Positions 1,689 through 21,080 of a stretch of DNA of 21,845 nucleotides are shown here, in pieces. This DNA comes from Globomyces pollinis-pini. Lineage: Eukaryota; Chytridiomycota; Chytridiomycetes; Rhizophydiales; Globomycetaceae. Within the stretch, counting starts at the first letter, position 1; each line of letters begins with the position of its first letter. The notes under the pieces were generated by a model. That model was not told where the DNA came from. It did not search any database and saw only the letters and a program-made list of their open reading frames with translations. The stretch is from NCBI GenBank assembly GCA_025399215.1, contig MU621373.1, positions 1 to 21,845 on the forward strand, in the 5' to 3' direction. A program made the translations under genes and the position numbers.

Positions 1689-4600
1689 ATGGTTGCACAA
1701 GATAGGATAGAAATTAGGACGACGATTCCTTCTTTTTTTTACCAAATGATAGAATTTGAGTTGATTCCAGTTGTAGGTGGGGCTATATTTGCTGTTGCTT
1801 CATTTTACTCAACTATTGCTACGTTCATACACGATGAACCATTGCGACAGTCGTATACATCAACTGCTAGCACCACTGCTACTAATACTGCACTTGAATA
1901 CGCTAGACTTGTAATCACCGCGGTACTTGCTCTAGCTTCATGGGCGGCTTTCTTCTTAGCCCTCCTCTATCATCCTACGCTCTGGTCTTTTGTCTTTGTC
2001 GCTGAATTCGCTCTCTCTTGGGTACTCTCGGTCTTATTTAATCACTTTTAGGTATATTCTTAACTGTCTTTAACCCTCTAGTTACCTCTGTCTTTTTTGG
2101 CTTACTCTTCGTTGCATCCGGATTCTTCTGCCCCAAGGCATTTTATCTTGCCTTACATTATCGCTCTCGCTTCCCAATCTTATTATACTTACTCGCTAAT
2201 CAACCCTTCTATTGCTTCACTAGCTATCAATGTCACCACTACTACTCTAACTCTACTCTTGCTCATCGTCGATATCATCACCCCCGTCAGAAATGCCGCT
2301 GTAATCGAATCTATCAAGATTGATGGTCGTTTACCCTGTGGTGAAGCTACTGCTTCCATTTGGTCGTTGATTACTTTCTCTTGGGTGAATCCTATACTCA
2401 AGCAGGGTTCCTTGAAGCCTTTGGAAGAAGAGGAATTACCCCATCTGGTTGAGGATGATGAAATGAAAAACATAGTTTATCGTTGGAATTTATTCAGGTA
2501 TTCTCCTTGCTACTTGATCAATCACACAGTAAATCATCTCTTACAACATACGCATTACTGTATATCTACAGCATTCAATCCATTAATCATCGTATTATAT
2601 TGTCTCAAATCATTTACATACGGGACAGAGTTAATTCTTTATTTTACGCTATTATGGACTATAAACTAACAATAATAGAGAAAAAAGCAACAAAAAAAGT
2701 GTTGTATGGGATTTACTCAAATTCACATTTTCATACGGGATCTTTCAAATTTTAGTCTCCATCGTCACCACCATCCTGGATTTCGCAAAACCATTCTTCA
2801 TCAACCTTCTTCTCACTTGGATCAAAGATCGCAAACCAGATGAGGAATGGTACCATGGTGGTCTGCTCTTACTAGGGATGTTTGTTGCCTCACTCATTCG
2901 GGATATCTTATATGCCCAGATTTATCTCAACGGTCGACATTGGGGAATTCAATTGCGTTCTATCTTTGTTTATGAAATTTTCAAGAAAAGTTTACGTCGA
3001 ACTGGTGGTGCTTCATTGGCGGACGATGAAGCGGGTCAAAAAGCTTCTCAAGTAATACTATTTCCAGTAACCGTAGGGGAAAATCGTCAGTTTAATGTCC
3101 AGCGATACTAACCAAGTGCGATACTTTATTACTGATATTCATTCCGTATTGATTGACATGCCACTATCTATCATCATGTCTATATCAGGTTTACTTTATA
3201 TCATGGGCATTCCTGCTCTTGCTGGTCTAGCAGTTATTGTCGTTAGTGGTCCTATTTCTACTTGGGCTTTATCAAAACTGTACAAGATTTTGAAGGAAAC
3301 TAGAATTTTGACTGATAAACGTATTCAAATTACCAACGAAGCTTTGCAAGGTATACATTTGCAATTAACATTCTAGGTATATCATGGGTTGGTAGTTTAA
3401 CTTCTTTAGGTATTGGAACACTGATACTAATTTTCAAAAGGTATTTGCATTCTCTTATATATAACAAACAGGAATCCGAATTATTAAATATATGTCTTGG
3501 GAACCACAATTCATCAAGAAAATTAATGATGCCAGAGAAAACGAATTGCAAACCAGATATTCGCTAATGTTAAATAATTTATTGGTAACAACAATTGCAT
3601 GGGGCTCCAGTATTTTGGTTACTTTTACTAGTTTCTTTTTCTACACTGTCGTAGCTGGCAATCAATTAGACGCACCCACCGCATTCACCAGTATCTCACT
3701 ACTCAGCACCGTAACTTATCTCTATTAACAATAGGTATCATTTGCATTAAGTAATGTGGGCGAAACTGTTTCGTGGGTCATGAACATTAAAGTCACCTTG
3801 CAGCGTATAAATGCGTTTTTGGATGAACAAGAATTGGTCAAGTTTGGATCCAACCAGGATCCAGATAATTTAGATTCCGATGCCTGGATCGGCTTCAAGG
3901 ATGCGCATTTTACTTACCATGGGTCTACTTCAACACCTGAGACTGTAACGGAGCAAACTCCGTTATTGGCTACTGCTGCTACTGAAGATTCTAATACATT
4001 TACATTACGAAATATCGATATTGTGTTTCCAAAACGCAAGCTCACTAGTATCATTGGTACTACCGGATCAGGAAAAACGTCCTTATTGTTGGCATTATTA
4101 GGAGGTAAGTCCCCATAACTAATTGTATAGAAATGAGTCAAATATCTGGTAAATATTCGATCCCTGAGCACCATCTTCTCAAACATTCCGACCAAGACAA
4201 GAGTGATATCGGTAACCAAGCATATTCTCATTCTAGCCTACGTGCCGCAAACGGCATGGTTGATCAACGCAACCATTCGTGAGAATATCTTATATGGCGA
4301 AGCATATGATGAAGAACGGTACTTTATGGTGCTAAAAGCATGTGCATTGTTGCGAGATTTAGATACATTGAATCATGGTGATCAAACCGAAATTGGAGAA
4401 AAAGGTGTAAATTTGAGTGGTGGACAGAAACAGCGTGTTTCTTTAGGTATGATTTCTTAGGTGTTGATTGTAATAGCTCGTGCTGCTTATTCGAGTGCAC
4501 CTATAGTTTTATTGGATGATCCATTATCTGCTGTTGATGCTCCCACGGCCCGCCATTTACTCTACAATTGTATTCTGGAGTTGTTTAAGGGTCGCACTGT

Positions 4601-21080: not shown

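Follow-up and report, generated by a model that had tools for sequence, protein, structure and literature searches.

Head-to-tail arrays of putative minimal introns in the chytrid Globomyces pollinis-pini

The classic ratchet points of zero-nucleotide recursive splicing number only a few per intron, delimit kilobase segments and lie in long animal introns. The twintrons of euglenid plastids are of group II type and involve no spliceosome. Recursive lariats are reported over a broader size range, including introns under 1,000 nucleotides (nt) (PMC10156609). Stwintrons are nested: an internal intron splits the donor, branch or acceptor element of an external one, which fixes the order of removal (PMC5639578, PMC12403724, PMC8469720). 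Introns of the fission yeast genes SPOG_01682 and SOCG_00815 consist of tandem 24-nt repeats with AGGC sites (PMC4974935, PMC3629103), and the complex introns of Lipomyces, found at a single position in a reticulon-like gene, are built of nested units whose donors abut (PMC7138796). The subject of this report is a 21,845-nt stretch of the chytrid fungus Globomyces pollinis-pini, of the order Rhizophydiales (MU621373.1; contig C284 of the 18.55 Mb, 459-contig genome that was searched), referred to as the window. Here, seven intron sites in four host genes consist of 24 units of 25-36 nt, each reading GT...AG and abutting the next at AG|GT (Table 1).

Taken as a whole, the sequence evidence suggests that each site strings complete minimal U2-type introns together head to tail, as an "intron satellite" whose units could be removed one by one and in any order; the probability assigned to this reading is about 0.6. 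In most units, a 5' site, a placed branch-like motif and a 3' site are all present. The first-pass annotation of the window had divided the seven sites at their internal AGGTs. All seven coordinate pairs are exact, with precise cuts at those positions, and nearly all units start with GTA (22/24) and all end in AG (24/24), as it had stated. Its branch-like TNAY near the unit end is present in 22 of the 24, although shuffled units already reach 0.62. Its description of each piece as resembling a complete intron is borne out by branch motifs within the units and by gap-free homologous proteins.

The same annotation had held that conserved protein sequence leaves no room for residues between units. 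Homology agrees at six of the seven sites, whereas the pair at 2022-2081 is not independently fixed. The four-unit ABC-C array is gapless against the ABC-C structure 9u57_A (P 0.002 by dinucleotide shuffle, 1000 trials per site, as for each parse below), and the GMPP array, at VGG|FGTRL, is gapless against structure 7d72_K (P 0.001). In GalE, the four-unit array is gapless against the bacterial structure 2c20 and eight relatives, which read YFIF or FFVF (P 0.000); a ninth relative, P0121, is shorter here. The two-unit GalE array is gapless against 2c20 and chytrid relatives, its parse by itself giving P 0.124. At the five-unit array, MK[VI][LI]V.GG opens eight relatives (P 0.000; genome match n=1). 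At the HECT array, the homologues P0001 and P0002 are continuous in a by-eye comparison (P 0.012). The pair at 2022-2081 is the least certain of the seven, with poorly conserved N-terminal flanks and a position without a homology anchor. If it is left unspliced, an in-frame stop ends the reading frame at 2051.

Units were compared with single introns in a sample of 42 arrays and 118 units, comprising 18 arrays from 12 loci hand-picked for long, several or similar arrays, 20 unselected arrays and four from the window; total array length in this sample is 52-285 nt. The single-intron background came from a codon-trained gene finder run on 200 kb of contigs C1-C3 and on the window. Its predicted introns (n=515) peak sharply at 25-34 nt, and their median is 29 nt. 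The 220 introns of at most 45 nt with good coding flanks outside the window have a median of 28 nt, against 29 nt for units. Ordinary introns of this genome, with a median of 28-29 nt, are therefore about the size of a unit.

Arrays were detected by AGGTA only, which imposes the A at +3 of units and leaves the branch motif as an independent sign. YTRAY occurs anywhere in 0.59 of the 118 units and 0.61 of the 220 single introns (shuffled 0.37 in both), its A lying mostly 6-9 nt before the last base. Once the motif must also be placed, its A falling 5-12 nt upstream of the final base, the fraction is 0.55 in single introns, 0.09 in 720 exonic GTA...AG controls and 0.14-0.16 in shuffled units. 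Placed motifs are found in 22/34 strictly internal units (shuffled 0.15), 24/42 units of unselected loci and 18/24 window units (shuffled 0.14). The units of arrays with similar neighbours reach 0.67 of 39, a figure in which units within one array are not independent of each other, and those of diverged arrays 0.46 of 65 (shuffled 0.14). The presence of such signals in units unlike their neighbours points to use of the internal sites. Genome-wide, 410 AGGTA-bounded segments carry placed YTRAY against 98 with YTRTY, in which the branch A becomes T; single introns flanked by an exonic AG and GTA also enter these counts. Within the GMPP gene, a 36-nt intron at 14770-14805 contains an internal AGGT that splits it into 17 and 19 nt, under the usual unit size; its excision would restore DILKKDES, which fits the length of the solved GMPP relative.

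The frequency of such parses depends strongly on unit number. Full parses appear in 0.000-0.007 of shuffles for sites with at least four units and in 0.012 for the three-unit site. For two units the values are 0.124 (GalE pair) and 0.165 (gamma-tubulin pair), so pairs, which parse in 12-17% of shuffles, prove little alone. Genome-wide, AGGTA-AGGTA-AGGTA occurs at 308 places with steps of 23-37 nt and at 16 with steps of 63-77 nt, a 19-fold difference; the reversed word ATGGA gives 115 and 86. By these counts and shuffles, the annotation's view that the pattern exceeds chance stands for arrays of at least three units but gains little from pairs. The triple list, in which 100 of the 308 places are shown, representing 68 distinct places, extrapolates to about 200 arrays of this strict type in the genome, a figure that includes a few doubtful places. 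At least one listed triple, at C2:114782-114855, is a 23-nt tandem repeat without mismatches, AGGTACTTTAAGGCTTCCGCAAC, which has AGGT at its borders and may be intronic or coding.

AGGTA pairs number 1371 against 602 (reversed word, 2139 against 2004). Pair and branch-pattern counts also catch single introns lying between an exonic AG and GT, a context found around 6/238 single introns, and the array claim therefore rests on triples and internal units. At lags of 23-37 nt, the random 200 kb contains 15 AGGTA pairs, compared with 2-7 in the other bins; the window holds 14 in 21.8 kb, about nine times that density. Arrays are a minority of intron sites and are unevenly spread. They lie clustered within a few kb in the window, at C12:38800-43500 and at C38:54000-58000, while the random 200 kb has few.

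Beyond what the annotation described, arrays elsewhere in the genome reach ten units (among the 12 picked loci), some being made of near-identical tandem copies. The gene finder frequently broke arrays up or treated a unit as exonic; it was used for loci and controls, and sites were trusted to protein alignments. At the ten-unit PhyH array, neither the solved relative 2opw nor eight other homologs has an insertion, and the flanking IFKQP is invariant; the protein encoded on C12 matches G. pollinis-pini BC833DRAFT_47563. The gamma-tubulin gene was found through a tubulin-family search that predates the interest in arrays. In all, seven families have proteins that are gap-free where the arrays lie: GalE, GMPP, PhyH, gamma-tubulin, Mgm1 dynamin, ABC-C and the HECT-ligase C2 domain. 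The unselected loci follow the contig order of the triple list, minus those already taken, C2:114782 and C21:95974, and at 18/20 of them the coding score is better on the array strand. Ten spliced proteins, picked as recognisable-looking and some hand-spliced contrary to the gene finder, were searched against Pfam. The array site lies inside a domain in six (L042, L043, L046, L048, L056 and L034, the last with a match below the curated cut-off) and outside in three (L057, L059, L038); L032 has no match. Seven of the ten come from the unselected loci, and in 5/7 of these the site is within a domain.

Table 1. Host genes and arrays in the window, with representative arrays from elsewhere in the genome. 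Window positions are those of the whole stretch.
Feature	Position	Strand	Units (coordinates; lengths)	Basis or context
ABC-C (MRP-type) transporter, host gene	1689..6919	+		homology
Mannose-1-phosphate guanylyltransferase (GMPP), host gene	13910..15277	-		homology, structure 7d72_K
UDP-glucose 4-epimerase (GalE), host gene	15496..16960	-		homology; start ATG read from sequence
NEDD4/Rsp5-type HECT ubiquitin ligase (C2, WW, HECT), host gene	18274..21080	+		homology
2-unit array, ABC-C N-terminal region	2022..2081	+	2022-2051, 2052-2081; 30, 30 nt	exact parse
4-unit array, ABC-C, after NEALQG	3351..3471	+	3351-3376, 3377-3409, 3410-3440, 3441-3471; 26, 33, 31, 31 nt	exact parse
4-unit array, GMPP	15131..15249	-	15218-15249, 15186-15217, 15158-15185, 15131-15157; 32, 32, 28, 27 nt	exact parse
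4-unit array, GalE, KAK|YFIFSS	16300..16423	-	16389-16423, 16362-16388, 16333-16361, 16300-16332; 35, 27, 29, 33 nt	exact parse
2-unit array, GalE, EQ|GD	16606..16659	-	16634-16659, 16606-16633; 26, 28 nt	exact parse
5-unit array, GalE, MK|VLVCGG	16805..16954	-	16930-16954, 16894-16929, 16867-16893, 16838-16866, 16805-16837; 25, 36, 27, 29, 33 nt	exact parse
3-unit array, HECT ligase C2 domain	18302..18391	+	18302-18331, 18332-18361, 18362-18391; 30, 30, 30 nt	exact parse
PhyH array, 10 units	C12:42085-42369 (L029:3286-3570)		29, 28, 28, 28, 28, 27, 29, 29, 28, 31 nt; 285 nt	between IFK and QPDIGGEV
Gamma-tubulin arrays			4 units at FFYQ|ADDAHY, 2 units at DSLE|GFMML	231-residue gapless alignment spans both
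Mgm1 dynamin array			6 units	protein alignment continuous
FabG array	L030:878-1039		6 units, each exactly 27 nt, within second codon	alignment edge

The arrays differ in how closely their units resemble one another. Neighbouring units exceed the 99% background similarity in 18/76 pairs and 10/42 arrays; PhyH units 2 and 3 match exactly, and units 2-6 of the FabG array are variants of one another. For these arrays, the simplest account would be that an entire intron, from one AG|GT joint to the next, was duplicated in tandem. In 27/42 arrays, neighbour similarity is not above the 90% background. For such diverged arrays, the window's included, old duplication would be indistinguishable from repeated insertion at AG|GT. 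Between different arrays, no pair above 0.55 similarity was found among the 118 units, and two arrays used as DNA queries against the genome matched only themselves in a search that skips very common words. These results give no sign of dispersed introners. Nor is there a signal that single introns arose from exon duplication: in 238 of them, intron ends match neighbouring exons no more than shuffled pairs do. The first FabG unit starts with GTAAAAGA, and the same eight bases occur in the downstream exon, a possible trace of exon duplication in a single case.

If the units are complete introns, their removal can be outlined. The spliceosome would pair sites by intron definition across ~25-36 nt, and units would leave singly, any of them first. 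By sequence, removal of an upstream unit would regenerate the GT: each event would join an AG or an exon to a GT and remake AG|GT, leaving every other unit with its donor, branch site and acceptor. With the junction restored each time, the units would be removable in any order, and all orders would converge on one mRNA. Copy number could then drift. Extra units would be nearly neutral, arrays would expand and contract like a minisatellite until their units diverge, and selection would hold each unit spliceable. The stepwise removal in this scheme is inferred from DNA. The fuller proposal is that an intron of about 29 nt serves as a minisatellite repeat unit, duplicating at its AG|GT border, with copies peeled off independently, the mRNA independent of copy number and ten or more copies possible; the chances that this is correct appear evenly balanced.

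Several observations weigh against the intron-satellite reading. Unit and single-intron lengths are slightly shifted relative to each other (Kolmogorov-Smirnov P 0.036), and their splice sites are not identical, with G at +5 in 0.27 of singles and 0.13 of units and T at -3 in 0.75 and 0.63. Similar neighbours occur in 8/18 picked-locus arrays but in only 2/20 unselected and 0/4 tested window arrays; selection may have preserved the signals of diverged units, those of the window among them, or such units may never have arisen by copying one from another. Among well-flanked long introns of the random 200 kb, 3/20 parse, all as pairs (shuffle mean 0.53; at least three in 3/500 shuffles). None of 36 unfiltered predicted introns of 76-300 nt outside the window parses. 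In the 46-75 nt class, 9/28 do, against a shuffle mean of 2.13; this unfiltered test is weaker than the well-flanked one because many predictions are doubtful. The public G. pollinis-pini model P0241 reads PhyH units 4 and 8 as exons, adding 19 residues. Finally, an 88-nt intron without AGGT (16081-16168) is removed in GalE, which makes one-step removal of most arrays physically possible.

That last point bears directly on an alternative in which each array is excised in one step, from first GT to last AG, the internal sites being relics of duplication or weak decoys. The same mRNA would result. Expressed sequence tags place several 24-nt repeats within a single fission yeast intron (PMC4974935), although the original authors call for further work on the true in vivo situation (PMC3629103), and a complex intron of Lipomyces starkeyi is described as leaving in one step or two (PMC7138796). 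One-step removal nevertheless appears unlikely. Against it stand the placed branch motifs in units unlike their neighbours, which are well above exonic and shuffled controls. The 285-nt PhyH array also exceeds the longest homology-fixed single intron observed (88 nt). In addition, 11 long introns of the window, a subset of those present and with one entered two bases off, comprise the seven array sites, which parse fully, and four introns free of AGGT; none is half-decayed. The annotation had listed long introns without AGGT. This is correct for 2498-2678 (181 nt), 16081-16168 (88 nt) and 13167-13242 (76 nt), and an 83-nt one was read by eye; homology fixes only the 88-nt example as an intron. 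Long introns with chance AGGTs in AT-rich DNA could account for some pairs, given the rate at which two-unit parses arise in shuffles, but as a general explanation this has almost no likelihood. Triple counts and shuffles reject it for arrays of three or more units, and the placed branch motifs argue in the same direction.

Two further alternatives concern what the units are and where they came from. Some units could be real micro-exons, or could be retained in some transcripts, and the 19 extra residues of P0241 correspond exactly to PhyH units 4 and 8. These residues are taken as an annotation error, because eight relatives lack them inside the invariant IFKQP. With unit lengths modulo 3 (0/1/2) of 40/33/45 and a stop-free frame in only 10/42 chains, retaining a unit would disrupt the reading frame in most cases; this alternative is rated very improbable. 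Coding tandem repeats were rejected for most arrays on the same stop-free count and on chain lengths modulo 3 of 11/17/14. The units could instead have accumulated through successive insertions into AG|GT proto-splice sites, introner-like or other, and not through tandem duplication. Each insertion would recreate its AG|GT target and could build an array, and both the many arrays with dissimilar neighbours and the lack of any similar pair in the four tested window arrays fit this model. The absence of similar units across arrays and the self-matches of the two query arrays count against it, making it a doubtful general source. In old arrays, unrelated sequence may have been inserted each time.

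The closest protein to the HECT ligase belongs to Globomyces sp. JEL0801, whose GalE and HECT genes have adjacent locus tags, in agreement with the window. In the JEL0801 GalE model, P0121, V replaces YFIFS at the position of the 16300-16423 array, and the model is fused with upstream sequence at that of the 16805-16954 array. These oddities at both GalE arrays are probably due to annotation, and they hint at arrays in JEL0801 too. Elsewhere in the window, 6966-7952, 8051-9227, 9308-10652 and 17172-18089 encode hydrophobic proteins without a family assignment that probably span the membrane several times. The window has no Rfam match at gathering thresholds.

If the minisatellite proposal is true, the arrays would represent a new route of intron multiplication and a natural case of multi-step splicing with order-free paths. 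Long animal introns have been the main setting for work on recursive splicing. Hundreds of short natural arrays in a compact fungus would provide a small and tractable model, where complete splicing paths could be followed in single RNA molecules. The occurrence of near-identical next to diverged arrays would allow the age, selection and neutrality of intron multiplication to be measured. Arrays also mislead annotation, as seen in the two of ten PhyH units that appear as exons and in the JEL0801 GalE model, which is four residues short.

How the arrays compare with known systems depends on whether their architecture or their growth is considered. As in the zero-nucleotide recursive splicing of Drosophila and vertebrates, AG|GT is juxtaposed inside one intron position, a joint that there lets the spliced 5' exon serve again as a donor and might do so here. 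The setting differs: arrays consist of minimal 25-36 nt segments, up to ten in a row, in a compact fungal genome, and do not lie in long introns. Stwintrons likewise place two introns at one position in a fungus. By contrast, the seven sites are contiguous complete GT...AG units in which no element is interrupted, unit number is open and the order of removal is not forced by sequence. Several intron units per position are shared with the Lipomyces complex introns, of which that of L. starkeyi is described as leaving in one or two steps, and introns within introns with the euglenid plastid twintrons. Introner-like elements share intron multiplication, but their dispersed near-identical copies at unrelated positions are not seen among the 118 units. 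Among the matches listed in open-access literature there is no report of arrays of complete short introns, which is weak evidence of novelty, as subscription journals lie largely outside that search. To the relatives named by the first-pass annotation should be added intron gain by tandem duplication, in which repeats with AGGT-like joints also become intronic. There, exonic segments are duplicated and one intron per gene is reported, whereas here the units would be complete introns with branch motifs in many genes; similar units joined at AGGT are found in 10/42 arrays, such as PhyH and FabG, and in none of the four tested in the window. The arrays would thus act like zero-nucleotide recursive splicing on a scale of 52-285 nt, and their visible growth resembles tandem-duplication intron gain in which the duplicated unit would be a complete intron rather than a piece of exon.

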